Positions 17,480 to 41,199 of a stretch of 42,082 nt of DNA are shown here, one piece after another. Positions within the stretch are counted from its first letter, which is position 1. The number at the start of each line of letters is the position of its first letter. The notes under the pieces are model-generated. The model was given only the letters and a program-made list of their open reading frames with translations, had not been told where the DNA came from and ran no database searches. The position numbers were made by a program, and so were the translations under genes. Source of the DNA: a virus; IMG/VR virus record IMGVR_UViG_3300017963_000417, positions 1 through 42,082 of that record. The stretch is one strand, 5' to 3'.

Positions 17480-18196
17480 TCACCACGAGTTGTCGTCTTC
17501 CACAGTTTCCTTCCAGTCCTCCGGTGTCGGGTCCGGCCGGCCTTCGCGATCGGTCACTTGGCGAAGATGTGCGAGCATGTACCGAACCCGCTCTTCGACT
17601 CCGCGCCAGCCGGCGTAGTGGACCATCCGCACTTCCTTGCCGGGGCGGCCTTGGCTGACCCAGAGCCAGTTGAGTTGTGCCGGCAGAGACACAGCTTCGT
17701 CACGTAGGTGCTTCTCGATCGCCATGTTGATCGGTGTCTGCTCCCAGAAGAAGTAGGTGCGGACCGTCTTGCCGTGGGCCGGCATCAGCTTCTGTGCTTC
17801 CTTGAACATCGGGATGCTGTCCCGGCTGGCGATGAAGAAGCCGGTGTTGAAGTAATGCCTGGCGCCGGTCAACGTAGGCTCTTCACGTATGGCGGTCAGA
17901 GCCGCCTGAGGGCAGTCCGACACAGCAGCGAACGGCACCGGGTCCTTCGGCAACAGATCCATCACAGGCCTGAGAGGCACCATGTCCGCATCGAACCACA
18001 GGATGCGATCGACATCGTCCTCTACCAGCTCCCACAGGAACGGCTTGATCCAGGCTCCTCGCCAGAGGGGGAACGGCACATGTTCCGGAAGGATCAGCCG
18101 AGTCTCGATCTCGTTCAGCTCCCGAAAGCGATCGGTGATGATGTCGCGGATCGGCGCGTAGTGACCATCGCCGTACGTCAACGCTACGGTCTTCAT
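17480..18196 (-). CDS. Glycosyltransferase, DXD type (238 aa)
   Basis: The start is ATG 18196, overlapping the preceding stop (TGATG). The chain looks like a GT-A-fold sugar transferase: MKTVALTYGDG at the N-terminus, ILWFDADMVPL with a D-X-D motif (about residues 84-94), then HYFNTGFFIA and a late HYAGW, as in GT8 or galactosyltransferase-like families. It would move a sugar from a nucleotide-sugar donor; acceptor unknown. It sits with a pyruvyltransferase-like and a GT9-like gene at the end of the virion operon, so glycosylation of virion proteins or of host surface glycans is plausible. There is no signal peptide. Confidence 0.75.
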   Translation of the reverse strand: MKTVALTYGDGHYAPIRDIITDRFRELNEIETRLILPEHVPFPLWRGAWIKPFLWELVEDDVDRILWFDADMVPLRPVMDLLPKDPVPFAAVSDCPQAALTAIREEPTLTGARHYFNTGFFIASRDSIPMFKEAQKLMPAHGKTVRTYFFWEQTPINMAIEKHLRDEAVSLPAQLNWLWVSQGRPGKEVRMVHYAGWRGVEERVRYMLAHLRQVTDREGRPDPTPEDWKETVEDDNSW

Positions 18197-18999
18197 CAGA
18201 TGCCCAACCTCTCGCATACCTTCGCCTTGAACCTCACATTGGCCGCACGACATTCCTCGAGGGCCCCGGGGTAGACCGGAGCATCCTTCACACGTTCCAG
18301 CACGGCTTCGTCGGACAGCTTGGCCAGAGGCAGGATCAACGGGGCGTGCCGCATGGCGTAGAACTTACTGGAGAACGGCACGGCGATGACCTTCCGGCCC
18401 AACAGCGTTGCCCAGTACGTGCCGTGGTAGGAACTGGTCACCACACACTCGCCAGAAGCCAGATGACTGAGCACCTTGAAGAAGTGTTCACCGGTGCCGT
18501 CGTCCTTGCCCAAGGCCACGGTGGCGCGATCGAACGTAGTAGCCTTCCGAAGCGGACGGGCTGGCTGCTCGTATGCCACAATGGCCTGTGTGGGAGCCTT
18601 TGCGCGGAACAACTCGAACACTGGCAGCATACAAGTAGGACAAGGCACCCAATCGCAGTCGGGCATGCCCCAGTCTCGCATGCCTCGCAGCTCGCAGGCC
18701 ATCAGCCAGTCCGGGTAGTCCGCTTGTTCCTTTCCCCAGAAGTCGTGCCCGTTGGACCACAGGACACGAGTGCCCTGGCAGTCCGCCAACATCTGCTTCA
18801 GGCGATCCTGCCAGGGCTCGTGGAACATGCCACCGCCTCCTACGATCAGGTCGCCGTCGAAGGACTGGCCGCCTCTCTGCTTGGTGTAGTTGTCGAAGCC
18901 GATCACTTCGTCGATCGGCAGATCGGGGAACAACTGCCACATGCCGTACAGTCGATTGGCCAGGTTGTTCGGATGATCGTAGTAGACGTTGAGCAACAC
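18196..18999 (-). CDS. Polysaccharide pyruvyl transferase-like protein (267 aa)
   Basis: GTG 18999 follows AGGAGGTGA. The family pattern is visible in the glycine-rich DLIVGGGGMFHEP (about residues 50-62) and in VVTSSYHGTYWATLLGRK (about 200-217), which resembles the substrate-binding motif of CsaB/WcaK-type enzymes. These add pyruvate ketals to sugars of cell-wall polymers or exopolysaccharides. A CPTC motif near residue 117 could bind metal. It overlaps the downstream glycosyltransferase by three bases. The target is unknown. Confidence 0.72.
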   Translation of the reverse strand: MLLNVYYDHPNNLANRLYGMWQLFPDLPIDEVIGFDNYTKQRGGQSFDGDLIVGGGGMFHEPWQDRLKQMLADCQGTRVLWSNGHDFWGKEQADYPDWLMACELRGMRDWGMPDCDWVPCPTCMLPVFELFRAKAPTQAIVAYEQPARPLRKATTFDRATVALGKDDGTGEHFFKVLSHLASGECVVTSSYHGTYWATLLGRKVIAVPFSSKFYAMRHAPLILPLAKLSDEAVLERVKDAPVYPGALEECRAANVRFKAKVCERLGI

Positions 19000-19009
19000 G
19001 GGTCACCTC

Positions 19010-19480
19010 CTACTTGGCTTGCTTCGCTTCCCGCTTCCTGCGGTTCACAATGCCGGAGATCAGCGCCATCACCTTGGCCTGCGGCGTGGTGGCCATCAGG
19101 ATCTTGGCTCCGATCCCCATCGCGGACTTCGCTCGGTCCAATGCCAGCTCTCGGGCCTTCTGCTTCTCGTCTTCCTTCAGCTTCTTGCCGTCGAGCTTCT
19201 TCTCCTTGACGTACTCTTCCCAGGCGTTGTTGACGCCCACCTCGAGTCCGTCCAGCATTGCCTGGAGCCACGCCTTGCCCACGGCCTTCTTACCGAGCCA
19301 GGCAAACACTGCAGCGATCACCAACGACACCATCTGCCCCAGACCACCGCCCGGGATGGCGTCCAGCACGCCCTCGCCATCCGCAGCTACTTCCACGGCC
19401 GGCCCTGCCTCCTGGGCGAACACCACCATCGGAAGCAGCACAGCAAACGCCACGATCAACGCCGCCATCAGATACCGCAT
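19010..19480 (-). CDS. Exported or membrane protein, possibly holin-like (156 aa)
   Basis: ATG 19480 has GAAAGGAGGG upstream. Residues 1-22 form a hydrophobic signal-like segment (MRYLMAALIVAFAVLLPMVV) ending in a possible FAQ cleavage site. A second hydrophobic helix lies near residues 45-65 (MVSLVIAAVFAWLG). The rest is a long charged helix with many Lys and Glu, and a basic C-terminus. The topology fits some small phage holins of the LLH type, but no endolysin is nearby, so this remains a guess. An alternative is a membrane anchor for the neighbouring glycan enzymes. Confidence 0.6.
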   Translation of the reverse strand: MRYLMAALIVAFAVLLPMVVFAQEAGPAVEVAADGEGVLDAIPGGGLGQMVSLVIAAVFAWLGKKAVGKAWLQAMLDGLEVGVNNAWEEYVKEKKLDGKKLKEDEKQKARELALDRAKSAMGIGAKILMATTPQAKVMALISGIVNRRKREAKQAK

Positions 19481-19504
19481 GCGTCCCTCCTTTCAAGAGG
19501 TTGG

Positions 19505-20995
19505 TTACTCGTCACCGCCAAGCAGACCGAGGACCCGGCGTTCCACAAGCCGCGGCTTCAGGTCCTGCATCAAGCCACAGCCCCAGGAACACCAGTGCTT
19601 CCAGCCGTTGTCCTGGTAGTAGGAGCACCCAGTGCAGCTGCCCGGTGCCTGCATCACCTTCACTGTCGGCCAGCCACCGAAGACCACATCACCGTTGGTG
19701 ACACCGCAGATCGCCAATGCCTTGCTCTTCACCCAGCCGGCCAAGTGGGCCATGCCGCTGTCATTGCCCACCAGCACATCGGTCTGCTGAATCACGGCAG
19801 CGATGAGGTGCTCGTCATCGGACATGAAGCGACGTGCCGGGATACGGAACACGTGATGCTTCTTGTCCCGTGGCCGATCGATCAGGTAGACCGCTACGCC
19901 CTGCTTCTTCAGGCGATCGATCAGTTCGTGGTAGCAGCGCAAAGGCCATTGCCGCATCGCACTGTTGGCAAACGGTACGACAGCCACGATCGGCCGGCCG
20001 TCCCGTTTGGGCAGCTTCAGGAACTCAGCGGCCTTCTCACGGGCCTCGTTCCTGATCTTGATGTCCCAGCCCTCGATCTCATGGAACGGGATGTCGAACT
20101 GCTTGGCGAAGAACTGATGCCGGTTCCAGCCGTACAGCTCACAGGTGGCGTCCATCTCGATCATTCGCAATGGTGAAGAGTGGCAGGCGAACTCGCCCAC
20201 ACGACGATCCTCGTCAGTCAAGTCCAACACCGGGACCCGATCACAGGCCGCCAGACGAGCCCAGTGCATCCGTTGCGGCACCGTTGTTACGCGTACCTGG
20301 ATTCCCTGTGCCTTGTTGATACGGTCCAACGCCTGGACGATCACACCCTGCATCATCGTATCACCGATGCCGGCACAGTCGATCGCATTGCCGTCTGCAA
20401 TCCGGGCCGGGCCGATGAAGTCGAACGTCTTCGGTAGCGGCTCGTGCCGAGTCACCACGTGGATCGGCAGAACAACGGTGTCGAAGTACTTGCCAGGACC
20501 CCACAGGCCTCGAGGGCATCTGGACTGGACCCACTTGGCCCGCTCTGCTACGTTGCAGCCACAGCCGTAGCGTTCCGGATGCTCCAACGTAGCGTCGTTC
20601 TCCGGATCGCCACAGTAGATGTGGCCGTCCAACTCACGCTTGATCGGTTCCAGCGTGTCGTCACCGTTCTCATCCCACACCAACTGCTTGCAGACCTTGC
20701 AGATGTCCACACGCATCCGTGTGATGGACGGCTCTTCGCGACGGGGATGATCGATGTCCTCTGGCGGGTCCTTTGGCTCGATAGGCAGGACCTCGTTGCC
20801 GACGATCTTCTTCGGCTCGTCAGTCTGCTGACCGGAGATGTGCACTCCGTCGTGGGCGATGGTGATGACTGGCATTCGGTCACGCGGCGCCTCGGGCGCC
20901 TGCTTCTTCTTGCCTCCACAACCACCGCACGTCTTCCTGGTCTTCTTCCCAACCGGTTGCGTCGTCTTCTTCTCGCCATTCGTGTTGCCGGTCAC
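19505..20995 (-). CDS. GT9-like (heptosyltransferase-type) glycosyltransferase with Cys-rich N-terminus (496 aa)
   Basis: The C-terminal two thirds resemble ADP-heptose LPS heptosyltransferases: GPARIADGNAIDCAGIGD in the first lobe, VAVVPFANSAMRQWP, then TDVLVGNDSGMAHLAG (about residues 405-420) in the nucleotide-sugar lobe. About 190 residues precede this. They include a KTCGGCGGKKK cluster near residue 25 and further cysteine pairs (CKVCKQ, YGCGCN) that could bind metal. A last Cys-rich patch (GSCTGCSYY, HWCSWGCG) lies near the end. The start is GTG 20995. Its place right after the tail-hub gene suggests it acts on virion or host surface glycans; acceptor unknown. Confidence 0.75.
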   Translation of the reverse strand: MTGNTNGEKKTTQPVGKKTRKTCGGCGGKKKQAPEAPRDRMPVITIAHDGVHISGQQTDEPKKIVGNEVLPIEPKDPPEDIDHPRREEPSITRMRVDICKVCKQLVWDENGDDTLEPIKRELDGHIYCGDPENDATLEHPERYGCGCNVAERAKWVQSRCPRGLWGPGKYFDTVVLPIHVVTRHEPLPKTFDFIGPARIADGNAIDCAGIGDTMMQGVIVQALDRINKAQGIQVRVTTVPQRMHWARLAACDRVPVLDLTDEDRRVGEFACHSSPLRMIEMDATCELYGWNRHQFFAKQFDIPFHEIEGWDIKIRNEAREKAAEFLKLPKRDGRPIVAVVPFANSAMRQWPLRCYHELIDRLKKQGVAVYLIDRPRDKKHHVFRIPARRFMSDDEHLIAAVIQQTDVLVGNDSGMAHLAGWVKSKALAICGVTNGDVVFGGWPTVKVMQAPGSCTGCSYYQDNGWKHWCSWGCGLMQDLKPRLVERRVLGLLGGDE

Positions 20996-21014
20996 GATGG
21001 CACGCTCCTCTCCT

Positions 21015-23180
21015 CTACGTTGCCGACTGCAGCAGACCGTTGCTGAACGTCAGATCAATGGTGGTCAAGTCCAACGTGACCCAGCATTGAGAGCCGTTCG
21101 TGGTACACGAGGCAGTGACATCGGTCACCACACTGAATGTTCCCGTGTAGCCGCTGGTCTCGCAAGAACAACTACAATCACAGGAAGCGGACCCGCTCGG
21201 CAAAGTGCATGTCGCGCAGCTGGCCGACACCACCCTGCCTCCCTTGTCCACCTTAATCGTCTTGATGAAGCCCACCTGGCCGTCACCGCAGCCCAGACAG
21301 TCGTACGTAGTACCGCCCTCACCGCTGCCGGAACCCGGGTCCGGTGGACTACCGCTGCTGCCGCTGCTGGCTCCGCCATCACAATCGAACGACGGGTCGA
21401 ACGGATCGGGGTTGTCGTTCTCACAGTCCGCTTCGGTTTCGTAATCCCCACCACCATTCTCTCCGACCGGCACACAACCCACACACGGCACGAAGATCCA
21501 GCCGCCCAGGTTGTTGCAGTCCGCTTCACAGGCAGCCAGTGTCGGGTAGGCACCGAGGTTGTCGTTCCGTTGCTGACAGTTGCCGTTGGGCAAGCAGTCC
21601 CAGGTGGGGCCGTTCTGGCCACCACCACCCGGTGCACCCGGCCCCGGCCGAAGTGTGCCGTCCTCGTCTGTGTACAAAGGTCCACCACAGAAGCAGGACT
21701 GGTCCTCTTCGGGCTTCGGCAGATACCAGTTGCCTCCAAGCTCGCTGGCGATCTCCTGACGCCGTTGTGCGTTGAACACCTCGGACTGCAGAGGTCGGTT
21801 AGACGTCTCCAGGATCATGTTCCGAGTGATGAAGTCGTAGGTGATCCCGCGGATGGTGGTGCCGTTCAGGTCCGACGGGTCGTTGATCTCGGCACCCAAC
21901 TCCATATCCGGATCCAGGCCCTTGATGTGGGCCGTCAGATCACCGATCCGATCCGGACCCACACAGTAGCGATCATACAAGGCACTGAGCATCTCGTACG
22001 CCGCTGCGGTGAAGTCGATGGAGCAGCCACTGGCACCACTGTCGTAGTAGCGGTACAGCTCCGGATGCTGCTCGATGTAGGTGCCTTCGTCGACCAGTCG
22101 GGAATCCCCTGTGCTCAGACTGATCGTGAATGTGTTCTCCAACGCCGTGTAGGTGAACCAGCAGAGGATGACAGGCGCAGGCGGCGGCGACACCGAGAAG
22201 ATGCCGGTCCGGATGATCGTGATCTCGAAGTAGTAGTGCGCGTTGGCCTCGTCGTAGTAGATCGGGATGTTGTGCATATCGAACACGGTCTGGCCGATCA
22301 CCAGGTCTGCGGTGACCCCCAACTGGACTCGGACCCAGGCGTCCTCTTTACAGTTGCAGTTCTCGTCCAGGTAGCGGCTCACAGCGAAGTCGTCGGGGAT
22401 GATGTACTTGAAGATGTACTTGTTGCTCTGGTCCGGGTCCTGAGTCACGCTCTCTTGTGGGATGAACAACAGGTGTCGACGTTCATAGTTACCGCAGCCC
22501 TCGATCCGGACCTCACCGTACTTGTCCTCCAATGACTCGCCCAAGGCTCCCTCGACGATCAGTGGGCTGTCGTTCTCTGTCGGGTCGATCTGGTTGTAGT
22601 TGCCCTCCTGCAGATCCACTGTGCCGATGGTCGCCATCGAAGCGAACATCAGCTTCGGCTGCAGCTCGCCACTGACGTCCACATACTCGATCCAGCAGAC
22701 GCCGTCCTCGGTGTGGCGAAGCACCTCGTTGATCCAGTTGTCAATGGACTGACCACCTTTGTCCATCTTCGGCAACGGGATGTCCGGCAACGTGCCCAGA
22801 GCGTAGCCGCCAGGCAGCATGTCGGACGGCAGCTCGTCCAGCAGAGTGGTCAGCACGGTATGTGCAGTGGTGTTCTCGCTGAACCTGATCTTCGAGGACC
22901 CGTTGATGGTGGCTGGGGTCTTGACCAGACGACGGTAGCGGTCCGCGCAGAGGTAGATGATGCCTTCACCGTCAGACCACTGCTCACGGATGTCCACCAC
23001 ACGACCGCGGAACACAAAGCCGAGATCGTCATCGGTGTAGGTGACCTCAGTGCCGACCTGCAGAGCAGCTGGGTCGTCCTTCTTCAACGCGTGCTCCGCT
23101 TCCAGGATGCTTGCCTGGTTGAAGCCGCGGGTCAGTCTACGGATGGTCAGTTTGCTGACCGACTCCAGAGCCGTTGCCAT
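21015..23180 (-). CDS. Tail hub/baseplate-like protein with Cys-rich C-terminal extension (721 aa)
   Basis: The start is ATG 23180 with GGGAG upstream; an ATG at 23195 has no ribosome site. The first 150 residues (GTEVTYTDDDLGFVFRGRVV, then YLCADRYRRL) resemble the hub domains of phage tail proteins of the gp27/GPD type. Order supports this: tape measure, adhesin, then this gene. Residues about 480-700 are extraordinary: about 20 cysteines, with CEADC and CEND units after YPTLAA and YETEA stretches, Gly/Ser/Pro linkers, and a DCSCSCE cluster. These may be small disulfide or metal-bound modules on the tail tip. The hub call is from position and pattern only. Confidence 0.6.
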   Translation of the reverse strand: MATALESVSKLTIRRLTRGFNQASILEAEHALKKDDPAALQVGTEVTYTDDDLGFVFRGRVVDIREQWSDGEGIIYLCADRYRRLVKTPATINGSSKIRFSENTTAHTVLTTLLDELPSDMLPGGYALGTLPDIPLPKMDKGGQSIDNWINEVLRHTEDGVCWIEYVDVSGELQPKLMFASMATIGTVDLQEGNYNQIDPTENDSPLIVEGALGESLEDKYGEVRIEGCGNYERRHLLFIPQESVTQDPDQSNKYIFKYIIPDDFAVSRYLDENCNCKEDAWVRVQLGVTADLVIGQTVFDMHNIPIYYDEANAHYYFEITIIRTGIFSVSPPPAPVILCWFTYTALENTFTISLSTGDSRLVDEGTYIEQHPELYRYYDSGASGCSIDFTAAAYEMLSALYDRYCVGPDRIGDLTAHIKGLDPDMELGAEINDPSDLNGTTIRGITYDFITRNMILETSNRPLQSEVFNAQRRQEIASELGGNWYLPKPEEDQSCFCGGPLYTDEDGTLRPGPGAPGGGGQNGPTWDCLPNGNCQQRNDNLGAYPTLAACEADCNNLGGWIFVPCVGCVPVGENGGGDYETEADCENDNPDPFDPSFDCDGGASSGSSGSPPDPGSGSGEGGTTYDCLGCGDGQVGFIKTIKVDKGGRVVSASCATCTLPSGSASCDCSCSCETSGYTGTFSVVTDVTASCTTNGSQCWVTLDLTTIDLTFSNGLLQSAT

Positions 23181-30661: not shown

Positions 30662-31666
30662 CTAGATGTCCTGGCCGACACCGAAGTGGCGGAACAGGCC
30701 GAACGGCGCCGTGGGCACCGCGTCGGAGTTGTCCAGCACCTTGAGGCGGAGCTGGAAGTTGGACCAGTCGGCGTCGTCCAACGAGAACGAGCCTTCCGGC
30801 TCCAGCTGGGCCTTGGCGAACGAGCGCATGAACTCGTTGCCGGTGTCCGAGACGCCGAAGAACAGCGCCTGCCCGATGACCTCGAGCTTCGTCGCCGGGT
30901 AGAAGAGCTTGTTGTCGCGCGTCTCGTAGTCATACGACACGCGGACGAAGTCGCCACTGGTGATGCCGCCGCCAGCGATCGCCTTGATGCCCTTGTACCC
31001 GCCGATGATGTCCACCTCGGAGTAGTCCGTGTCCTTCACGTAGGTGGTGACCCCGGTGATGTCCTTCACGACGATGCTCTCGCCGTTGTAGGAGTTCCCG
31101 AGGACCCGCACCTCCGTGTCGATCAGCTGGACCACTTCGTCCGTCACCTGCTGGATGGCGTACGCCGTCCAGGTCACGGTGGCGTCCGACGTGGTGGCGC
31201 CTTCGGTGGTGTTCCACGTCGGTTCCGATGCCCCCGACGTGCCGGCGACCGTGCACTTGTACACGTTGCCATCCGGAGTCGTGGGCTCCACGTAGTCGCC
31301 GACCACATACGCCGTGGTCGCCTGCCACGCCGAAGCCGATGCGGGCCTGCCGACGACAGAGGTGACCGCGTCACCTCGGAAGAACGACCGCAAGTTCTCG
31401 GTCGAGAGCTCGTCCAACGTGAAGACGATCTCCTCAGAGATCTCGGTGACGAGCGACCGGTCCTTGCGACGCGTCCCCGTCTTAGCAGAGAAGTGGTCCA
31501 GTTCCTCGATCGCCTGCTCCGAGGACGAGTCGACCACGTTCCCCATGTCCCTGAACCCCTCATAGGTGTTCGGGGTGACGGTGTCATCGACAAGGCGGTT
31601 GAACCAGAAGCGAGCCCCGCCGATCGTGTAGTTCGACGGCGAGCCGCCCTGATAGAATGCGCACAT
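30662..31666 (-). CDS. Major tail protein with an inserted repeat domain (334 aa)
   Basis: ATG 31666 follows AAGGAGG. The gene lies directly before the assembly chaperones, as tail-tube genes do. The body is strand-rich (GGARFWFNRL, EEIVFTLDEL, DFVRVSYDYET, LFFGVSDTGNEF, FQLRLKVLDNS). Residues about 111-168 form a separate domain (W-X-TTAYVVGDYV, then SEPTW and TVTWTAY) that recurs in the major capsid protein at 39177-40271. It looks like an exposed decoration domain, perhaps binding carbohydrate, on each tube subunit. Confidence 0.85.
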   Translation of the reverse strand: MCAFYQGGSPSNYTIGGARFWFNRLVDDTVTPNTYEGFRDMGNVVDSSSEQAIEELDHFSAKTGTRRKDRSLVTEISEEIVFTLDELSTENLRSFFRGDAVTSVVGRPASASAWQATTAYVVGDYVEPTTPDGNVYKCTVAGTSGASEPTWNTTEGATTSDATVTWTAYAIQQVTDEVVQLIDTEVRVLGNSYNGESIVVKDITGVTTYVKDTDYSEVDIIGGYKGIKAIAGGGITSGDFVRVSYDYETRDNKLFYPATKLEVIGQALFFGVSDTGNEFMRSFAKAQLEPEGSFSLDDADWSNFQLRLKVLDNSDAVPTAPFGLFRHFGVGQDI

Positions 31667-31683
31667 TCTAAAGCCTCCTTGTC

Positions 31684-32142
31684 TCAGCGCCTACGGCCGC
31701 GGCGACGGAATCGCCTGCGTACCTCCGGAGGCGCATTCTTCCAATGGAACGCCAACACCCTGGCACGTACGGGGCGGATGATCTTCCCGCCTTTGGTTCC
31801 TTCCTCGACCCACCGCGCGTACCGGGCTCCGAAACCCACAGTCCACACCAACGGCCGCACCCGACGAGCGCTGCCGCTTGCCCGCAGGTGTCCTGTGTCC
31901 GCCGGTGCCTTTCGCTGAGCAGCTGTCAGCGTTGTGTAGACCGCAATCCTGACGGCATCCTCAAGCCGACGCATAAGGACACTTCGTCGCAGGCTGCGTG
32001 AGGTGGCGATCACGTGCCGGACTTGCTGTGTCAGCACTCGCTTGCCGGTCTCGAAGGCCGGCATCAGGAACGGCTGCGCCGGGGTAGCTCCCCGGGTGAC
32101 GAACCTGAAGAATACGAGCGGTCCTCTGCGTCGTCTGGCCAT
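31684..32142 (-). CDS. HK97 gp10-like head-tail/tail completion protein (152 aa)
   Basis: The central part matches the gp10-like pattern: AQRKAPADTGHLRAS, then VGFGARYARWVEEGTKGG. Both ends are strongly basic (MARRRRG and RRRFRRRGRRR). It lies just before the major tail protein gene. Such proteins take part in joining or completing the tail at the neck. ATG 32142 overlaps the preceding TAA (TAATG). Confidence 0.8.
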   Translation of the reverse strand: MARRRRGPLVFFRFVTRGATPAQPFLMPAFETGKRVLTQQVRHVIATSRSLRRSVLMRRLEDAVRIAVYTTLTAAQRKAPADTGHLRASGSARRVRPLVWTVGFGARYARWVEEGTKGGKIIRPVRARVLAFHWKNAPPEVRRRFRRRGRRR

Positions 32143-32552
32143 TACGGTGCCTCGATCATGCGAACGTCAAACGTCGTCGCTGCTTGCCACCGATCGCCGT
32201 CTGTGGTTCCGACATCGGTGAACGTCACTTCGTCGAATCGATGGACCACAACCGGACTGCCGGCGTAGCTCAACGATCTTGCGGACAAGGCATCACGGAC
32301 CAGATCAAGGATGTCGTTCGCCAACACCTTGTTGTCCACACTGGCCGCGACCAACGCAAGTACCCCCTCTCCTCGTCTTGCCCGCTTGTCCACCCGGCCG
32401 GCCTGCCAGGTGTATGTGATCGTGTTGCCGGCGGCCGGCTGCGTCGGGTCCTCTGAAGGCCTGATGTTCGCAGCTGGCACAACAGCGGTGATGGCCGCCG
32501 TACCGTCCAGTACGTGCTTCAGGGCCTCGAACAACTTCGGATGCAGGCTCAT
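32142..32552 (-). CDS. Tail terminator-like protein (136 aa)
   Basis: Length, order and pattern fit the DUF3168/tail-terminator group: an N-terminal helix (HPKLFEALKHVLDG), strand-rich middle (NTITYTWQAGR, GVLALVAASVD), a helix (ANDILDLVRDALS) and a closing strand (AATTFDVRMIEAP). These form the ring that caps the tail tube and docks to the head. Neighbours are a head-closure-like and a gp10-like protein. Assignment rests on pattern and gene order. Confidence 0.65.
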   Translation of the reverse strand: MSLHPKLFEALKHVLDGTAAITAVVPAANIRPSEDPTQPAAGNTITYTWQAGRVDKRARRGEGVLALVAASVDNKVLANDILDLVRDALSARSLSYAGSPVVVHRFDEVTFTDVGTTDGDRWQAATTFDVRMIEAP

Positions 32553-32905
32553 TTCCTACCGTCCTTCTGCAGGACCACTTCGTTGTGGTCGTACTCTCCC
32601 TGGAGCCTGGCCTTCGGCTGTGTGGCCAGCACAACGAACTTGTCGGTCAGCCAGGGGAGCGCTACGTCGACCCGATCGTTGGGAGCGATCACCGTGTCCA
32701 GGGTGTAGAACATGGCGTCGTAGTTGTAGATCTGCCCTTCCTCACCGACCGCAATGGACCCACCACGGATCTGGAGTAGGCCATCAACGTCCCGGGTACT
32801 CACCGGCGAAGCGTAGTCGTACCTGCTGGCCCCGGTCGCTGGGTCGGTGGTGACGGTCGGTTTGATGACCGACACACGATGCGGCGTATGGCGTAGCGTC
32901 CCCAT
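32549..32905 (-). CDS. Head closure (stopper)-like protein (118 aa)
   Basis: The small beta-barrel pattern resembles head-closure proteins of the SPP1 gp16/HK97 gp7 kind: HRVSVIKPTVTTDPATG at the start, a long acidic loop, then DTVIAPNDRVDV and DKFVVLATQPKAR. It overlaps the terminator gene by four bases. It would seal the portal after packaging and provide the tail attachment site. Confidence comes mainly from gene order. Confidence 0.6.
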   Translation of the reverse strand: MGTLRHTPHRVSVIKPTVTTDPATGASRYDYASPVSTRDVDGLLQIRGGSIAVGEEGQIYNYDAMFYTLDTVIAPNDRVDVALPWLTDKFVVLATQPKARLQGEYDHNEVVLQKDGRK

Positions 32906-32915
32906 TGCTGGCTCC

Positions 32916-33437
32916 TCACCCGACGATCTTGTCGGCGTCGATCACTCGGTAGTTCGCATCGTCGTCGTCCAGCTTGACGTGGAACTTGCCCTCGAGTGCC
33001 TTGACGATCTCGCCGGTCCGGACTTCGCCCTTGTAGTCCACCACGACACTGGACCCGGGGCCCAACGGCGGCTCAGAGGCGATGCCGTCGTCCTCGTCTT
33101 CGTCGTCCTCGTCCTCGTCGTCGCCCAGCTCGGCTGCCTCCTTCGCCGCCTGCGCGGCCATCTCCGCCTTGACCTTCGCCTGGCGTTCCGCTTCGGCCTT
33201 GGCGGCCATGTCCGCCATTGCGCGTGCCTCAGCGTCCTTCTCGGCGTCCGTCTTGTCGTCACCCTTCGTGGGCTCTTCGGCGTCCATCTCCTCGATCTTG
33301 ACACCGGGGAACAGCGCCTCCAGGCGACGGAACATGAAGTGGTCCCGCGGCAGGTCCGTCTCTGCCACCGACGCTGTGAAGTCCAGCCCACAGGCGACGC
33401 CGGTGTAGTTCCTCTCCTTCAGTGTGACTCTGATCAC
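32916..33437 (-). CDS. Charged coiled-coil protein with barrel-like C-terminus (173 aa)
   Basis: Residues about 55-110 form a long Ala/Lys/Glu-rich helix. An unbroken acidic run (EDEDDEDEDD) follows. The last 50 residues begin SSVVVDYKGEVRTGEIV and end DADKIVG, a small barrel pattern very similar to the three repeats of the protein at 5548-6849. No family is recognised. It sits among head-tail and small membrane protein genes; it could be a virion component or an assembly factor. Confidence 0.65.
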   Translation of the reverse strand: MIRVTLKERNYTGVACGLDFTASVAETDLPRDHFMFRRLEALFPGVKIEEMDAEEPTKGDDKTDAEKDAEARAMADMAAKAEAERQAKVKAEMAAQAAKEAAELGDDEDEDDEDEDDGIASEPPLGPGSSVVVDYKGEVRTGEIVKALEGKFHVKLDDDDANYRVIDADKIVG

Positions 33438-33748
33438 GACTCACCTCGCTTTCCTTTGCATTCCGCACAACCGGTCTCCACCTTGCTCAGTCGCTCGTAG
33501 ATCTCTGGCAGGTTGTGCACGATCTTCTTATCTGTGTCGGCGATGTTGGCTTCCGTTCGAGCGATCCGTTCACGGCTGGCACCCATGTAGTCGTAGAAGA
33601 TCCTACGAAGATCCTCATGCTTCACACTCTGCCGGTTGAAGCGCGAAGCAATCTGATGGGTCAGCGCACCGGCGAGGGCAATGATGACGGTACAGAGGAT
33701 CGCCACCAGCTGCCAGCTCGCGCCGTCACCAACCATGTTGGCCAACAT
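33434..33748 (-). CDS. Small membrane protein with cytoplasmic-like tail (104 aa)
   Basis: One strongly hydrophobic segment (WQLVAILCTVIIALAGAL, residues about 12-29) is followed by an amphipathic helical region and a C-terminal CAEC pair. Its ATG is at 33748 and its end overlaps the next gene by four bases. It pairs with the membrane protein encoded just upstream (33750-34112). A lysis-related or membrane-associated function is possible, but nothing specific can be shown. Confidence 0.65.
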   Translation of the reverse strand: MLANMVGDGASWQLVAILCTVIIALAGALTHQIASRFNRQSVKHEDLRRIFYDYMGASRERIARTEANIADTDKKIVHNLPEIYERLSKVETGCAECKGKRGES

Positions 33749-33749
33749 C

Positions 33750-34112
33750 CTAGTTGTCTCCGTTCCTGAAGCGGCCTTTGACCAGCACGTAGTAGCACGC
33801 CAGTACGCCCAGCAGGAACGTGATGCTCGGGTACTCCTTCAGCACGTTGGCGTGTACCCAATCGATCACGTTGTACAGCTTCCCTCCCAGCTTCTCGTTG
33901 AAGTCCAGCGCAGCGACGAGAATGGAGATGCCCAACATGATCCACCACGCGGTCCGGTACCAGTGGGGCCTCACGATACGCCATGCGGCGCGGGTCCTTT
34001 CGGCGAACGGTGGCCGGTAGTTCTTGTCCGGATGGCCGAACTCCTTCTGGATCTTCCCCATCTGTTCCGTGAGGCCGTCTTCGCCGGTGCCTTGTAGCTG
34101 TGTGTCAGGCAT
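33750..34112 (-). CDS. Small protein with two membrane segments (120 aa)
   Basis: After a polar 45-residue start there are two hydrophobic helices (TAWWIMLGISILVAAL, about residues 53-68, and ITFLLGVLACYYVLV, about 97-111) joined by a short amphipathic loop, with a basic C-terminus. Two membrane passes in 120 residues fit class II holins, but the long N-terminus is unusual and no endolysin is adjacent. Its neighbour is another small membrane protein. Confidence 0.65.
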   Translation of the reverse strand: MPDTQLQGTGEDGLTEQMGKIQKEFGHPDKNYRPPFAERTRAAWRIVRPHWYRTAWWIMLGISILVAALDFNEKLGGKLYNVIDWVHANVLKEYPSITFLLGVLACYYVLVKGRFRNGDN

Positions 34113-34137
34113 CCCTCATTCTCCCTTCGCTCTGCGA

Positions 34138-34575
34138 CTACGCCTCGTCCACGAGTCGGGCGCGGACTTCCAGCTTGACCTGCGCCTTCTTCCCCGCCGG
34201 GACTGCCGCCGGAAGATTGATGACGATCTGAGACTCTCCCGTCGGCACCTCGACCACCTGAGTGATCGTGGTCCAGGACCCGGCATCGGAGTCGGTGGGA
34301 TTCTCCCACTTGTAGGACAACTGCCACTTGGCATTGCCGGTGCTGGTGCCAACCGGCTTCCAGTGAACATGCGGCTTGACATCGCTGCCCTGACGGTAGT
34401 CGTGGTCGAACTGCATCGTCCACTTGAGCTCTTGGTCCTGGTTGTCCGCAAACGCCCAGGCATCGTTCGTGGCGTCCCATGTAGGAGAAGAAGCGCCGGG
34501 CGTTGCCCTTCCCGGCTCACCCTTCAGGTCTGCCCAGCCCAGGAACCCGCCTTCGTCGTTGGTTCGCGTGGTCAT
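34138..34575 (-). CDS. Beta-rich putative virion protein (145 aa)
   Basis: The product has regular strands with alternating aromatics (KPHVHWKPV, KWQLSYKWEN, ESQIVINLPAAVPAG, AQVKLEVRARLVD), like a jelly-roll or immunoglobulin-like sandwich. The aromatic His-Trp and Tyr-Trp pairs suggest a sugar-binding or decoration role. It is encoded just downstream of the spike gene and may be a partner of it. I do not recognise a named family. Confidence 0.6.
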   Translation of the reverse strand: MTTRTNDEGGFLGWADLKGEPGRATPGASSPTWDATNDAWAFADNQDQELKWTMQFDHDYRQGSDVKPHVHWKPVGTSTGNAKWQLSYKWENPTDSDAGSWTTITQVVEVPTGESQIVINLPAAVPAGKKAQVKLEVRARLVDEA

Positions 34576-34584
34576 GGCGGTCTC

Positions 34585-37500
34585 CTATGCGACCTTGTTG
34601 CCCGACTCTGTACGGTTGGTGCCGTTGAACGACGCACCGCCGGTCGTGTTCCCGCGAAGATGGTTCACACCGAACAGGTTGTAGTCACAGTTGGAATCCT
34701 CGTCGATGCCGTACAGTGCACAGCTCTCGCAGCGGTTGCCGTTCACGGCGAACTCGGTCACGGTGTTCAGGTCGATCCCGTCTTCCGCAGCGTTCTGCAC
34801 GTAGTTGTTGCTCACGATACCGTTGTCACTGGTCGTGACGGTGATCCCACTGCCGGTCGGATCGACGATGTAGTTGCCGTCCACCGTGCAGTAGTCAGAA
34901 CTGTTGATGTTGACTCCGTCCTGTGTCGTACCGTTCACATCGACGATGTGGTTGCCGCGCACCGTCGAGCTGTTGGAGCCGGACAGGACGATGCCATGTC
35001 CACCGGTTGTCTGGATCCTGTTGTTGCATACCTGAGCGAATGCTGCCGAGATGACGGTGATCCCGGTCGTGTTGGTGTTGTAGATCCAGTTGTCGTTGAT
35101 CTGGTGATAGGAGTTGTTCACGTCGATCCCATCACCGCCTGTGCCGTTGATGTAGTTGCCGTTGATCTGCCAGAACTGACCGTTGGACTGGATGCCGTCG
35201 CTTCCGGCGCTCAGGACGTAGTTGTTCAGGCATTGACCACGCAGCGCACCGCTTCCTACATAGATCCCGATGGACACAGGGTCGTAGACCATGTTCCCAA
35301 TGACCTGCACGTAGTCACCCGTGCCCACGTCGATGCCGTTGGCACCGGCAGAGTAGACGTGGTTGCCCTCAACGGTGGCCGCGTTGCCGTCGACTTCGAT
35401 TCCCGACCCGGTGGGGTCATAGACCATATTGCCGACGATCAACGTCCGGTGCGACGTGCCGTCTGAGTAGATGGCCTCGTCGGCTGCACCGATGACCAAG
35501 TTGCCGATGACCGAGACATCCTCCGCATCGTTGACGTAGATCGAGTCACCGCCGACGCCGTCCAGCATGTTGCCCTCGACCAAGGTCCGATCCGAACCGC
35601 CCTCGACGTGGATGCCGTTCTGAGAGGAGCTTCCCGAAAGGAAGTTCATCACGATCTGGCATTCTGCACCACCACAGTCGATGAGGCTCTCGTCAGTCCC
35701 CGCATCACCGATGATGTAGTTAGCCCAGAGGTGATTGTTGTCCCCATCGATGTCGATCCCACGATTCTCGGCATTCAGGATGAAGTTGCACACCATCTGG
35801 CAACGGTCTGCAGTCGCGTCCGTGTCCAGCCCGATGTTGCCGCAGTCCTGCATGTAGTTCGCCTGGACCTGACACTCCACACCCTTGATGTAGATGCCGT
35901 AGTTGCTGGCTGCGTGGATCATATTGCCGATGAGCTGGCACTGTGATCCATCCACTTCGATGCCGTCGGAACCGGCAAGATGGATGATGTTGCCTTCCAT
36001 CGAGATGTTCTGCGCACTGCTTGCAACGTAGATGCCTTCGTTGCCGGTGTTGTAGATCACATTGGCCAAGACAGCCACGCAATCCCCGGTTCCTTCAACG
36101 GTGATTCCTCGGTCAGCCGGACTGATGATGACGTTGCTGGCAATCGAAGCATAGTCGAGATCGTTCGCCCAGATGCCGTGGTCGCCAGCGTCTGTGATCA
36201 GGTTGCCCACGCACGAACAGCGGTCAGACCCTGACAGGTCGATACATGCCGCGGTGGCTGCGGCATCCTGTGCGAGTGAGTTCCCTTGGATGGTGCAGTC
36301 AGTACTCTCGCACCGCACTGCGGCCATTGCTCCGGTACCCGCTGCGCCTGCACCTTGAACGAGGTTCCCGTTGATTGCAGTGAACGGCCGGTTCGATAGA
36401 ATGCCGGCGTTCTGGCACCCATCGACCACGTTGCCTTGCACCACACAATGGTCGCCGCTGTCCTCGACAGCGATTCCGTTCGCTCCTGCGCCAACGATCA
36501 TGTTGCCTTGGACCGTGCAGTCGTACCCGCGGATGGACAGACCATCGTCCGACGCTTGGTTGTAACACACGTTCCCTTGGACCGTGACGTTGTTGACGGG
36601 GCTGGCTGAGTCACCAACTTCGATGGCCTTGCCCGAGCCGCCAACGATGAGGTTGCCCTGTACGTTGCCACGGTCGCCGTCCATGTTGATGGCGTCACCG
36701 GCAGCATCGTACACAACGTTCCCACAGATGGTGACGTCCGTGGCGCTCTCCACGTCAACACCGGCACCGCCCGGATCGTTGATGACGTTGCCGAGTACAC
36801 TGATCCTCGAGATGGCGGCTGCGCCAGCAGTGATCGAGATCCCCGCTGAACCGGCATCCACATAGTTGCCGCCGATCACACTGTCCGAACCACCGTTGGC
36901 ACCGGCGAGAAGGATGCCTTCGCTGCCCGCGGTGATGTGGTTGTGTGAGACGTTGGTGCCATCACCATCGACAGTGATGCCGTCACCGCCAGCAGAGACG
37001 ATGTTGCCGTCAATCACATGGCCAACACCGGACACCGTGATGCCGACGAGATTGTCAGAGATGACGATGTTCCCAGTGATCGTTGCGGTGTTGGTCGTGT
37101 CATTGCTCGACTGGATGCCGTTGCCGTTCGTCGAGTGGAGATAGTTGCCGGTGATGACCCAGCCCACACCATTGGATCGCATGTGGATGCCGATGTTGGC
37201 ATTGATGACACTGTTTCCGGTGATGGAGCACTGGTCCGTGTTGTCCAGATCCATCGCCTGACCGGTCACGTTGAAAACGTTGCCGACGATCTTCAGGTGA
37301 GTGCAGCCGTTGAAGTTGCACCCCACGCCGTCTCCACCGCCATCGAGCGTGTTGCCGTCGATCACCAACCGGTTGCTGCCGTGCACTTCGATGCAGTGGC
37401 TGGTGTGACCTTCCAGAGCGTTGCCCTGGATGACCGAATCGTCGGCATCGATCAAGATCGCAGTGTCGGTGGCATCGCGAAGTACGTTGCCTTCGATCAA

Positions 37501-38790
37501 GATCCGCACACCCTCATCGATGTTGATGGAACCACCGCTGAGGATGTTGTCGGCGATCAAGCAGTCCAATGCGCTACCGCCGGTGCCGGGGTTGATGTCG
37601 ATGAGTGCGCCAGCCTCCGACGCAGCCTTGACGATTCGACAGTCCCTGATGACGATCCCCGAGATGTCCTGCGAACTGCCGCTGGTGATCTCCACGAACT
37701 TGCTGGAGCGGAAGTCCGTCTCGCTGATGATCCGTTCGATTGTCCAGCCAACACGTGGCGCTGCCGTAGCCGTGAGCCACGGGTTCGTCCACGTCGAGGG
37801 AAACCGCCTGTCATGGATGTCATGGATGTGGACGTAATCCGCGGTGAACGGACACGCAATGACAGACTGGTTGCTCGCACACTGAATGCTGAAGTTCCCC
37901 AGCTCCGCGTAGTGGGCAGTGCTTCCGATCTGGAATGCGATAGCCGACGGTAGTACGAGTACCGTAGCGTAGCCACAACCAACCAACCGCATCCCCGCCT
38001 TCAACGTGATAGGACCGCTGAGCGTATGTGTGCCTGGTGCCGCAATGAAGCAGTCATTCGCTGACCCAGCGTTGACGATTGCAGCAAGGTCCTCGCTCGG
38101 ATAGACGACGCGAGCGCCAGCCGGATACAGCGATGCGGTTGCGCCCGCACCGTCAGACACGGGCACCGTGCCAACGGCTGCCGCCGTAGCGAGATTCTCC
38201 AACTGAACTTCGTCGGAGCCACCATCCTCGTGGCTCGATGCGTGAGCGAGCGGCGCACGTGCGTCGGAGAGTCGCGAGTCGTTCCCGGCACATGCTTGCT
38301 GGGCACCCGTACCCAGCGTTCGCAGTGAACCGGTTCCTACCGCAGCGTCGATCGCCATTGCGTCTGCGCCACCCGCATCGTGTGTGGTTGCGTGAGTCTT
38401 CGGAGGCTGCGGGTCTGCCAGCTCACCGCTGAGACCCGCGACGTCGATCTCGTCTGTCCCACCGTTCTCGTGTGTCGTGGCGTGGGGACCGAAGCTCTCC
38501 ATCACCCAGGCGGAGCCATTGTACGAATAGTACTCCGTCTCGGCGTTCACGTACGCGGTGAGACCGATGATCGCCGTGGTGAAGTCCCAGCCACCGCCGT
38601 TCCACTCAGCGATGTTGTTCTCCTGGCCAACCCAGGCGCCTGTGGCTACCGCAGCCACGATGTAGCGGTCACCCACACCCGGTGAACCGGGCGGGGTGGT
38701 GGTTGTCTTGTTGATGACCGGATCCACCCAGTGGGCGTCTCCGGAGTCCGCTCCCCTCTTGACCGGCGTAGGGAATCCTGAACGAGTCAT
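34585..38790 (-). CDS. Giant parallel beta-helix spike protein (1,401 aa)
   Basis: The N-terminal 95 residues resemble the DUF2793-type start of spike proteins (PGSPGVGDRYIVAAVATGAW). Three copies of H-X-T/S-X-H-X-X-G-G-X-D follow near residues 103, 133 and 184 (HATTHENGGTDEI, HATTHDAGGADAM, HASSHEDGGSDEV), a motif known from tail fibres. From about residue 240 to the end, dozens of 20-24-residue units of the type V-X-GN-X-I-X-X-A-X-X-X-GI form a right-handed beta-helix like pectate lyases and tailspikes. It presumably binds or degrades a host polysaccharide. It lies between capsid and head-tail genes, not next to the tail tip. Codon pattern and GC look like neighbours. Confidence 0.85.
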   Translation of the reverse strand: MTRSGFPTPVKRGADSGDAHWVDPVINKTTTTPPGSPGVGDRYIVAAVATGAWVGQENNIAEWNGGGWDFTTAIIGLTAYVNAETEYYSYNGSAWVMESFGPHATTHENGGTDEIDVAGLSGELADPQPPKTHATTHDAGGADAMAIDAAVGTGSLRTLGTGAQQACAGNDSRLSDARAPLAHASSHEDGGSDEVQLENLATAAAVGTVPVSDGAGATASLYPAGARVVYPSEDLAAIVNAGSANDCFIAAPGTHTLSGPITLKAGMRLVGCGYATVLVLPSAIAFQIGSTAHYAELGNFSIQCASNQSVIACPFTADYVHIHDIHDRRFPSTWTNPWLTATAAPRVGWTIERIISETDFRSSKFVEITSGSSQDISGIVIRDCRIVKAASEAGALIDINPGTGGSALDCLIADNILSGGSINIDEGVRILIEGNVLRDATDTAILIDADDSVIQGNALEGHTSHCIEVHGSNRLVIDGNTLDGGGDGVGCNFNGCTHLKIVGNVFNVTGQAMDLDNTDQCSITGNSVINANIGIHMRSNGVGWVITGNYLHSTNGNGIQSSNDTTNTATITGNIVISDNLVGITVSGVGHVIDGNIVSAGGDGITVDGDGTNVSHNHITAGSEGILLAGANGGSDSVIGGNYVDAGSAGISITAGAAAISRISVLGNVINDPGGAGVDVESATDVTICGNVVYDAAGDAINMDGDRGNVQGNLIVGGSGKAIEVGDSASPVNNVTVQGNVCYNQASDDGLSIRGYDCTVQGNMIVGAGANGIAVEDSGDHCVVQGNVVDGCQNAGILSNRPFTAINGNLVQGAGAAGTGAMAAVRCESTDCTIQGNSLAQDAAATAACIDLSGSDRCSCVGNLITDAGDHGIWANDLDYASIASNVIISPADRGITVEGTGDCVAVLANVIYNTGNEGIYVASSAQNISMEGNIIHLAGSDGIEVDGSQCQLIGNMIHAASNYGIYIKGVECQVQANYMQDCGNIGLDTDATADRCQMVCNFILNAENRGIDIDGDNNHLWANYIIGDAGTDESLIDCGGAECQIVMNFLSGSSSQNGIHVEGGSDRTLVEGNMLDGVGGDSIYVNDAEDVSVIGNLVIGAADEAIYSDGTSHRTLIVGNMVYDPTGSGIEVDGNAATVEGNHVYSAGANGIDVGTGDYVQVIGNMVYDPVSIGIYVGSGALRGQCLNNYVLSAGSDGIQSNGQFWQINGNYINGTGGDGIDVNNSYHQINDNWIYNTNTTGITVISAAFAQVCNNRIQTTGGHGIVLSGSNSSTVRGNHIVDVNGTTQDGVNINSSDYCTVDGNYIVDPTGSGITVTTSDNGIVSNNYVQNAAEDGIDLNTVTEFAVNGNRCESCALYGIDEDSNCDYNLFGVNHLRGNTTGGASFNGTNRTESGNKVA

Positions 38791-38799
38791 AGCTGCCCC

Positions 38800-39096
38800 C
38801 TATCCGGCCTTCGGCGTGTACCACAGCTTCGTGGCACCGCTCGCGAGGCACTGGTGCCGGATCTTCACACCCTCTGCCGGGACAGGCACCGTGTCCCCAG
38901 AGTCCAGCTCGATTTCTCCGTCGTGCTGCAAACCGTCCCGATGCAGCGCACCGGAACCCTCCATCGACAAGTAGACCTTCTGCGATCCAATGTTGGTGAG
39001 AGCGCCGCCGACGCCTTCGACGGTCAGTGTATGCACCGTGTCGTCGCACTCTACCGTGGCCCACTTGGAGTTGACTGTAAGGTCGCCAGCGGCCAT
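38800..39096 (-). CDS. Small beta-rich protein, possible capsid decoration (98 aa)
   Basis: ATG 39096 has GAGGAG upstream. The 98 residues are nearly all strand-forming (LTVNSKWATVECDDTVHTLTV, then KVYLSMEGSGA and KLWYTPKAG), with no membrane segment. The gene follows the major capsid protein, where many phages encode a cement or decoration protein. It also precedes the spike gene, so an attachment role is equally possible. Family is not recognised. Confidence 0.55.
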   Translation of the reverse strand: MAAGDLTVNSKWATVECDDTVHTLTVEGVGGALTNIGSQKVYLSMEGSGALHRDGLQHDGEIELDSGDTVPVPAEGVKIRHQCLASGATKLWYTPKAG

Positions 39097-39124
39097 GATT
39101 CAGCTCCTCTCCGATTACGGCGTA

Positions 39125-39157
39125 GGGGCGTCCGGCACCGAAGTACGCGGACGCCCC
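39125..39157 (-). terminator. Perfect 10-bp hairpin downstream of the capsid gene
   Basis: GGGGCGTCCG (39125-39134) and CGGACGCCCC (39148-39157) pair fully around a 13-base loop in the 80-base gap after the capsid gene. There is no T-run, so it may be an mRNA stabiliser or an incomplete terminator that lowers expression of downstream genes relative to capsid. Confidence 0.55.
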
Positions 39158-39176
39158 CTCATTCCGTGGACTCAGG

Positions 39177-40271
39177 CTAGTTGTTGATGCCCCGGACCTG
39201 TGCGAGCGCCAGCTCGGACTTCAACGCGAGGCCCGGATACCAGCGAACGCGATACCGCATGGCATCCTTGTCCTCCAGCGTGCCGACCGTGATGACCTGC
39301 ACACCGCCGTTGCGGCGCGCCATCAGGCCGGTGACGCCCTCTTCCTCGTCCATCGTGGCCAGCATGATCCGACACTGGGTCGCATCGCGCGTGGTCCACG
39401 TGACCGTGCCGTCCGAGGTCGTGTTGCCGGGCGTGGTGTCCCACGTCGGCTCGGACCCGCCGGAGGTGCCGGCCGTGGTGCACTCGAACAGCAACGTGGT
39501 GTTGCCGCTCGTGGCGACGACCTTGTCGCCGAGGACGTAGGCCGTGGTCGCGGCCCACGCGGACAGATCGGCACGCGAGGTGCCTTCGCTGTCCTCGTCC
39601 AGCGGGACCCAGTCGTTCTTGAGGATCGGGCGACCGCGATAGGTCATGAAGACCCTGCCACCGATCGACACCGTCTCCGGCTGGGTGCCGCCGAGAGCGC
39701 GCTGCAGCTTGATGTACGAGCGCAGCGTCCGGCTGTTCATCACGAACGCCGGGTTCTCGCCGATCTTGACCTGGTCGATCAGCCAGTCCAGGTGATCGTA
39801 GGACAGCGCCGCATCCGACGCGTCGCTGATCTGGCTGGCCTGGAGACCGTCCGCCAGGACCCGCAGACCATCGAACTCCTTCGGCCTGAGCGTCTGATTG
39901 CCGTTGATCAGGGCGTTCGCGTACTTGCGACCGACCACCTTGGACTTCTTGGCGATCTGGGTCGCGGCCTGATCGGTCTCGTCCGACATCGTGCTCTCGA
40001 GGAACTCGTCCACGTCCACCTGACCGATCAGACGGGTCAGCTTGGTCGTGACCTTGGTGAACGTCGCTGCGCTCTCGCCCAGCGTGTCGTTCACGTCGTA
40101 GAACTCGGCGTCACCGAGCGTGTTCTCTCGGTTGTACTCGTACTGCCGACCGGTGATCGGCATGAACGGCACGACGGAGAACAGCTCGTCGGACGTGATG
40201 ATGTTGTCGATCACGCCCTGCTGAAGCATGGGCAGCGAAAGCTTCTCTGCCTCTGCCTGGAGAAGCGCCAT
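39177..40271 (-). CDS. Major capsid protein with inserted repeat domain (364 aa)
   Basis: The gene follows scaffold, and the product resembles HK97-fold capsid proteins of the DUF5309-like or encapsulin-like kind: an N-terminal arm (LSLPMLQQGVIDNI), ELFSVVPFMPITGRQYEYNREN, an E-loop-like stretch, RKYANALINGN, and FVMNSRTLRSYI before GRPILKNDWVP. Residues about 236-296 are an extra domain (W-X-ATTAYVLGDKVV, then SEPTW and TVTWTT) almost repeated in the major tail protein. It lies after the ILKNDWVP strand and before the final strands, so it would project from the shell. ATG 40271 follows GAAGGG. Confidence 0.88.
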   Translation of the reverse strand: MALLQAEAEKLSLPMLQQGVIDNIITSDELFSVVPFMPITGRQYEYNRENTLGDAEFYDVNDTLGESAATFTKVTTKLTRLIGQVDVDEFLESTMSDETDQAATQIAKKSKVVGRKYANALINGNQTLRPKEFDGLRVLADGLQASQISDASDAALSYDHLDWLIDQVKIGENPAFVMNSRTLRSYIKLQRALGGTQPETVSIGGRVFMTYRGRPILKNDWVPLDEDSEGTSRADLSAWAATTAYVLGDKVVATSGNTTLLFECTTAGTSGGSEPTWDTTPGNTTSDGTVTWTTRDATQCRIMLATMDEEEGVTGLMARRNGGVQVITVGTLEDKDAMRYRVRWYPGLALKSELALAQVRGINN

Positions 40272-40305: not shown

Positions 40306-41199
40306 CTAGTCCTCTTTGCTCACCGTCTGCTGTGCCTTCAGCCCCGCCTTGATCTTGTCCTTGGCGGACATGTCCTTGCTACCGGACCCGTCGCCACTGC
40401 CAGGACGATAACCTGTTCCGCCGGGGCGATCGCTGACGAACAGGTTCGCATACTCCTTACGGCCCTTGAGGTACTCGACGTACTTGTCCACGGAGAGTTG
40501 CTTCTCCACGAACTTGCCGTCTTCCTCGACCGCCGTCTGCACGACGGTCTCGAACGAGTTGGGGATCACTTCGCCCTTGTCGTTCTTCCGCTGTACGACG
40601 TGCGTCAACGGGGACACCAGAGCGAGGAGCTGATCAGGATTGAAGGCTTTGTGCTTGGACGCCGCCGACATGATCGCCGTGTCCTTGCGTTCCTTCTCGT
40701 ACAGACCCTGCCACTGCTTGGCTTCCGTCTTCGTGGCCTCGAGCTCCTGCTGATGCTTGGTCTGGGAGCGCTTCTTCTCCGCCTCGGCCTTCTCGCGCTC
40801 GGTCATCAGCTCGGCCTCGAGGGCGGCTGCCCTGTCGTCCAGCTTCTTGCGCTGTGCCTCGGTCAGATCCTTGGCGTCCCGCATCTTGTTGAGCTCGTCC
40901 AGCTGCTTCTGGGTCTGCTCCTTGTACTTGCTCTCCAGCTTGGTCTTCTCGCGCTTGACGATGGAGTTCAGCTCCTCCTGGGTGAACGTCTTGTTGCCAT
41001 CGTCGCCGCCGGAACCGCCACCGGAACCGCCAGCGCCACCCGAGGCACCGCCACCACCGCCCCCGCCACCAACATCGCCGTCGTCGTCCCCGTCGCCTTC
41101 CATTCGTCGGAAGCGACGATGTGTGACGTACGACCGCATGTTCTGCTGACGGTCCACGAACCGCATGCCCAACAACCGCGCGAGCCTTCGACTATGCAT
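40306..41199 (-). CDS. Scaffold protein (297 aa)
   Basis: ATG 41199 follows AAGGGGAG. After a basic N-terminus there is a Gly/Asp/Ser-rich linker (about residues 36-67) with a run of eight glycines. Then comes FTQEELNSIVKREK, a motif common in phage scaffolds, and about 100 residues of charged coiled coil. The C-terminus (SAKDKIKAGLKAQQ) is a short basic helix that would bind the capsid shell. Its place directly before the capsid gene supports the call. No protease domain is visible, so the scaffold probably exits or is cut by another protein. Confidence 0.82.
   Translation of the reverse strand: MHSRRLARLLGMRFVDRQQNMRSYVTHRRFRRMEGDGDDDGDVGGGGGGGGASGGAGGSGGGSGGDDGNKTFTQEELNSIVKREKTKLESKYKEQTQKQLDELNKMRDAKDLTEAQRKKLDDRAAALEAELMTEREKAEAEKKRSQTKHQQELEATKTEAKQWQGLYEKERKDTAIMSAASKHKAFNPDQLLALVSPLTHVVQRKNDKGEVIPNSFETVVQTAVEEDGKFVEKQLSVDKYVEYLKGRKEYANLFVSDRPGGTGYRPGSGDGSGSKDMSAKDKIKAGLKAQQTVSKED

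Follow-up and report, generated by a model that had tools for sequence, protein, structure and literature searches.

Accessory domains on the head and tail proteins of phages, such as Ig-like domains and the insertion domain of the T4 capsid, are already known. The Ig-like domains are thought to help phages linger on glycans. The chitin-binding-like insertion domain of T4 stabilises the capsid (PMC3185693). In the tail tube protein of phage YSD1, the outer face of the tube is formed by domain 2, which comes after helix alpha1 (PMC8718954, PMC7385642), and the C-terminal beta-helix and the distal beta-sandwich of the cyanophage Pam1 tailspike have been proposed to recognise host polysaccharide (PMC9382816). 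Here, we describe a module of about 60 residues that is shared by the major capsid protein (MCP) and the major tail protein (MTP) of an uncultured tailed phage. The phage is represented by an entire IMG/VR virus record of 42,082 bases (IMGVR_UViG_3300017963_000417), which is called the window in the following.

The same module in the capsid and the tail tube protein

The MCP gene (39177..40271, minus strand) encodes a protein of 364 residues, which is assigned to the HK97 type by a match to phrog_212 that spans its core (residues 1-244, E = 1.9e-61). The C-terminal part (residues 297-364) matches phrog_31318 (3e-22), and the profile also finds the SrpI encapsulin (1.4e-13) and other HK97-fold shells. 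The MTP gene (30662..31666, minus strand) encodes a protein of 334 residues belonging to phrog_807, the major tail proteins with Ig-like domain of the chi/YSD1 tail tube type. This assignment is based on the profile match (5.3e-22) and on the homology to the YSD1_22 tail tube (6xgr), which is found by the MTP family profile with an E-value of 4e-73, the alignment covering positions 2-248 of the 253 in the profile.

In a BLASTP comparison of the two proteins, MTP residues 109-167 align with MCP residues 234-293 with 40 identical residues in 62 positions (65%, E = 2e-19). Nothing in the remaining parts of the pair is significant, the next match having an E-value of 0.08. Within the MCP gene the module is encoded at 39393..39572 and is located between ...KNDWVPLDEDSEGTS and RDATQCRIML..., and within the MTP gene it is encoded at 31166..31342 (both minus strand), after the helix STENLRSFFRGD and immediately ahead of the part that aligns with the beginning of YSD1_22 domain 2. 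These are the only two sites, as a third copy is absent from the whole window record. The first-pass annotation, which was made from the sequence alone, had proposed that the two proteins share an inserted domain. The identity far above chance level bears this out, and the proposed boundaries were correct to within a few residues.

Insertion and order of acquisition

As judged from the sequences of relatives, the module is a true insertion in both proteins. MCP relatives of about 300 residues, including those of Pseudomonas phage PaMx11, Stenotrophomonas phage Sonora, Streptomyces phage Rowa, Gordonia phage Dogfish, Paenibacillus phage Tripp, and others, align on both flanks but do not contain the module. 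The closest MCP relatives (57-67% identity) are L003, L111, L112, L113, and L114, where L-numbers are the labels of the related-phage records and open reading frames (ORFs) that were compared. All five have the module at the same site as the window. Between the window and L111 the module is 84% identical versus 64% for the core, and between L111 and L112 it is 75% versus 84%. The MTP relatives in L113 and L114 have an empty module site, and both phages have the capsid module. The MTP of L113 reads FFRGDTVTDIAAGTGTG-TVTDEVAQL where in the window MTP the module is flanked by FFRGDAVTSVVGRPASAS and YAIQQVTDEVVQL. In L197, the closest outgroup, both genes were found and neither contains the module. 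With empty sites in relatives of both proteins, the segments are insertions, as had been supposed in the annotation, and not parts of the core folds.

A tree of 98 MCPs was calculated after removal of the module from the sequences, and two changes are required in it to account for module presence. Six module-bearing MCPs make up the window clade (support 96/82), which is sister to the module-free L197 (100/99). The other change corresponds to an independent insertion of the same module near residue 146, a different site, in six further MCPs of the family (L032, L039, L061, L062, L092, and L103). Of the relatives whose tail gene was found, none shares the tail insertion with the window. The simplest history suggested by these relatives would be that the capsid copy came first and that the tail copy was added later on the window branch. 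However, the records of L003, L111, and L112 (fragments of 6.1 and 17.8 kb and a record of 55.2 kb) contain no match to the MTP gene, and therefore the tail copy may date from before the window branch. In L112, whose record is the one of 55.2 kb, about 3.3 kb separate the capsid gene from one end.

Fold and family of the module

The structure was predicted with AlphaFold2 (AF2) for the window MTP module alone, aligned with 65 others (66 modules in total). The prediction has a mean predicted local distance difference test score (pLDDT) of 94.8 and a predicted template modelling score (pTM) of 0.80, and shows a small beta fold of the type of the carbohydrate-binding module (CBM) families 5 and 12. 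The best match in a Foldseek search is the Pam1 cyanophage tailspike (7eea) with a template modelling (TM) score of 0.68 and a probability of 1.00. Next come Vibrio chitin deacetylases, whose CBM domains reach TM scores of 0.52-0.57 with probabilities of 0.96-0.99 (for 4nz4/9jeo TM 0.55-0.57, probability 0.99), and then chitinases, while 2d49 is reached with a TM score of 0.43. When a profile of the 66 modules is searched against the PDB sequences, the two top matches are the chitin-binding domain of ChiA1 (E 0.023) and, after it, 7eea (E 0.17). The Pfam CBM_5_12 model (PF02839) is matched at E <= 0.1 by 26 of the 66 modules, the isolated window modules scoring 20.6 (MTP) and 13.7 bits (MCP). 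Because the window copies are below the Pfam cut-off of 26.2 bits, the module is, on the predicted structure, termed CBM5/12-like and not regarded as a member of CBM_5_12. W7 is retained in 61 of the 66 modules, and positions 44 and 59 are aromatic in all of them. The tentative suggestion of a carbohydrate-binding domain is thus, as far as the type of fold is concerned, supported by a confident prediction, by the Foldseek matches to the Pam1 tailspike and to CBM5/12 domains, and weakly by Pfam.

Both proteins also match the C-terminal domain of PHROG 20658 (profile positions ~131-198 of 211), which is labelled "head decoration" (MTP 6.5e-14, MCP 1.8e-11). This label does not make the MTP and MCP decoration proteins because it is the module part alone that matches. 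An Ig-like fold (BIG1/BIG2/FN3) was considered and rejected: there is no Ig-like entry among the PDB fold matches listed, and the Pfam search of the 66 modules gave a single Big_4 match at 0.018.

Distribution in other phages

With one peptide pattern, 358 loci containing the module were confirmed in viral records of IMG/VR, 80 of which were kept. Of the 45 other module-bearing ORFs that were compared, all of which match PHROG 20658, ten encode baseplate hub proteins, four minor tail protein L, and two P22-type stabilisation proteins, and there is one tail sheath protein and one LamG-domain protein. This distribution, as far as it can be read from the sequences, suggests that the module is mobile among the virion proteins of tailed phages. 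Among the searched records, many of which are fragments, the window is the only one with the module in both the capsid and the tail tube, and in the open-access papers searched, no phage was met whose capsid and tail tube both bear a CBM5/12 module.

In cyanophage Cy-LDV1 a second protein of the tail region also contains the module, in addition to its tail protein. Tail-region proteins of about 1200 residues with three module copies each are encoded in L013 (Cy-LDV1, 17832-21431) and L066 (7439-11062), and in both records the major tail protein has one module. In L014 (Tunturiibacter phage Tunturi_3) the module is present in three separate ORFs of the stretch that was read.

Position on the virion

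The module is located in the MTP directly after the aligned helix, ahead of the part that corresponds to YSD1_22 domain 2. Because this helix aligns with alpha1 and domain 2 of YSD1 is on the outer face of the tube, the tail module likely faces outward. In the MCP, the insertion is about 30 residues past the segment that aligns with Gly194 and Pro196 of SrpI, which are residues of its axial pore, and this distance suggests that it belongs to a loop of the A-domain. The window has a single MCP gene and a single MTP gene, so that hundreds of module copies would be expected per virion.

Role of the module

The best explanation for these data seems to be a mobile CBM5/12-like display module providing weak, multivalent adhesion to glycans, to which we assign a probability of about 60%. 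The shared module, its insertion, and its presence or absence in relatives are read from sequence, while the fold is a prediction for the isolated module. The order of acquisition, the outward exposure, the glycan binding, and the adhesion are deduced from these data. Accordingly worded, a self-contained, all-beta module of about 60 residues would circulate among the virion proteins of tailed phages and would have entered the capsid protein first, probably in a loop of the A-domain. A second copy would have entered the MTP later, probably in an event of its own, at the base of domain 2, which faces outward. With every capsid and tail tube subunit carrying the module, hundreds of copies of this putative glycan-binding module could weakly and multivalently bind a polysaccharide such as a host capsule, an extracellular matrix, or a chitin-like polymer. 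Virions would thereby be concentrated near their hosts prior to contact with the true receptor. Such weak and multivalent binding to glycans is considered the most likely role because of the CBM-like fold, the use of the module in tail fibres and in a tailspike, and its repeated insertion into unrelated virion proteins.

Several points weigh against this explanation. At the level of the fold, the Foldseek search gave no PDB match at E <= 0.001 (the best being 6.9e-3), and with 19.2 bits for the MTP and 11.5 bits for the MCP the Pfam cut-off of 26.2 bits is missed. The placement of the MCP insertion on one or the other side of the shell is derived from homology, and AF2 gave a pLDDT of only 31 for the whole MCP (six sequences). 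The order of acquisition is based on few relatives given the missing MTP matches in L003, L111, and L112. In addition, the fold does not prove adhesion, because the chitin-binding-like insertion domain of T4 serves to stabilise the capsid (PMC3185693).

Concerning the origin of the two copies, the annotation had suggested a duplication or an ongoing exchange between the two genes. In such a scenario, the tail copy would be derived from the capsid gene of this genome and the exchange would be continuing. The identity of the copies in protein (65%) and DNA (70% across 171 bases, E 1e-15) would fit, and the similarity at the DNA level that had been noted is real. However, it is not a clear sign of recent exchange. 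The third codon positions are only 51% identical, and identical codons are used at 21 of the 40 identical residues where codon usage alone predicts 17, a small excess on the side of a duplication. With so small a difference the DNA likeness adds little to the protein likeness, and it would mostly reflect the shared protein sequence and the codon bias of one genome. The nearest relatives point in the same direction. The modules of L040, L033, L036, L032, and L035, all from other contigs, are ranked above the window MCP module (63%) as BLASTP matches of the MTP module. The L032 module is part of a capsid protein that has it near residue 146, and the ORFs of the remaining four match neither the capsid nor the tail-protein profile. 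The MCP module is closest to the capsid module of L111 (84%), and in a tree of 66 modules (62 alignment columns) it forms a clade with the L111 and L112 modules (99/86) that excludes the MTP copy. It has to be considered that the module set was collected starting from the MTP module, so that rows resembling the tail copy are favoured. An approximately unbiased (AU) test does not reject a clade of the tail and the capsid module (p-AU 0.11 with the 62-column alignment). With the MTP module closer to modules of other phages, the capsid copy being older, and the codons near expectation, copying of the MCP module into the MTP within this genome is disfavoured by the sequences but not rejected, and we regard it as improbable. 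Recent gene conversion between the copies was considered separately and is supported neither by the codons nor by the nearest relatives. The identities of the MCP module and the core disagree between related phages (window-L111, L111-L112), and their quartet counts differ (Fisher p = 0.024), a weak hint that the MCP module might move between related phages through recombination.

Concerning function, the module could bridge neighbouring capsid subunits and tail rings without binding any ligand, as the T4 insertion domain or the BIG2 domain of phi29 might suggest. There are precedents in these two phages (PMC3185693), and Foldseek reports a weak likeness to the T4 entries 6uzc_C, 9mkb_Ao, and 8gmo_0 (TM 0.45-0.48, E 1.3-4.9). 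Domain 2 of the YSD1 tail protein stabilises the ring, and the tail module is found at the root of just this domain. However, the module occurs at unrelated sites in unrelated proteins and therefore a common subunit interface cannot explain it. In addition, most MCP and MTP relatives assemble without it, and such a clamp thus seems unlikely, although it is the main alternative and deserves more credit than the duplication. It is even harder to believe that the module is a passenger, a mobile surface domain that is tolerated but has no function for the phage. The spread over many proteins and sites would also be expected of a domain that simply does no harm in surface loops, but nearly all of the 66 copies retain the core aromatic and the glycine/proline positions, and no member of the clade of six lacks the capsid copy. 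Moreover, the ratio of nonsynonymous to synonymous substitution rates (dN/dS) of the MCP module is below 1 in 15 of 15 pairs (0.18-0.92). It is above that of the core in most pairs, not in all.

Gene context

The gene of a head scaffolding protein (40306..41199, minus strand; phrog_206, 1.8e-15) is located immediately upstream of the MCP gene, and that of a tail completion/neck protein (31684..32142, minus strand; phrog_5, 5.5e-12) immediately upstream of the MTP gene. A variable cassette separates the capsid gene from the connector genes (34585-38790 in the window, 11536-13847 in L113, 2251-8819 in L114). It contains a beta-helix tailspike-like protein of 1401 residues in the window (Pfam Beta_helix, NosD), three similar ORFs of about 250 residues in tandem in L113, and a repetitive ORF of 1684 residues together with an ORF of 265 residues in L114. 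Concerning a host that might be identified via a prophage, a search of genome contigs confirmed no MCP relative.

Comparison with known systems

The domain most similar to the module in fold is that of the Pam1 tailspike (7eea, residues 493-544), with a TM score of 0.68. In the aligned columns 36% of the residues are identical, and the signature AGTTGATAPTH...TVSDGGVNW is shared. However, it belongs to the receptor-binding region of a tailspike there and to capsid and tail tube subunits here. The CBM5/12 domains (ChiA1 1ed7, Streptomyces ChiC 2d49, Vibrio chitin deacetylases 4nz4/9jeo) share the AWQxxTAYxxGxxVxxxGxxYKC signature, the fold, and the weak Pfam similarity, but the AGTSGxxEPTW...T.DGTVTW half of the phage module is absent from the aligned part of ChiA1. 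Modules of the same family are found in the major tail protein of Mycobacterium phage LilSpotty and in the capsid protein of Glutamicibacter phage Voltaire, where they are C-terminal and not internal as in the window. In the tail protein of Cy-LDV1, which is homologous, the module is in a different loop.

The T4 capsid is comparable in that a chitin-binding-like domain has been added to an HK97-type capsid protein (PMC3185693). It differs in that the structural match to the phage module is weak (TM 0.45-0.48, E above 1) and in that the role in T4 is capsid stabilisation. The relatives of the window provide a series that can be ordered from no module (L197) via capsid only (L113 and L114) to both proteins (window), and which offers a natural test of the effect of a putative glycan-binding coat on adsorption. 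They also provide a small module for insertion, for which one capsid and one tail protein have natural sites. The Ig-like display domains (YSD1 domain 3, lambda gpV, T5 pb6, SPP1 gp17.1*, Hoc) are, like the module, accessory beta domains on tail tube or head proteins, and for them weak binding to surface carbohydrate has been proposed as well. However, their fold is another one, and in the tail proteins compared the Ig/FN3 domains are C-terminal while the module is internal in both window proteins. What is suggested here is a different fold in the same use, inserted internally rather than appended, in the capsid and in the tail tube. Somewhat short of conviction, we would tentatively place the CBM5/12-like module beside the Ig-like domains as a general display module of phages, which in this case might have been taken up separately by the two most abundant virion proteins to give one multivalent glycan-binding coat on head and tail alike.

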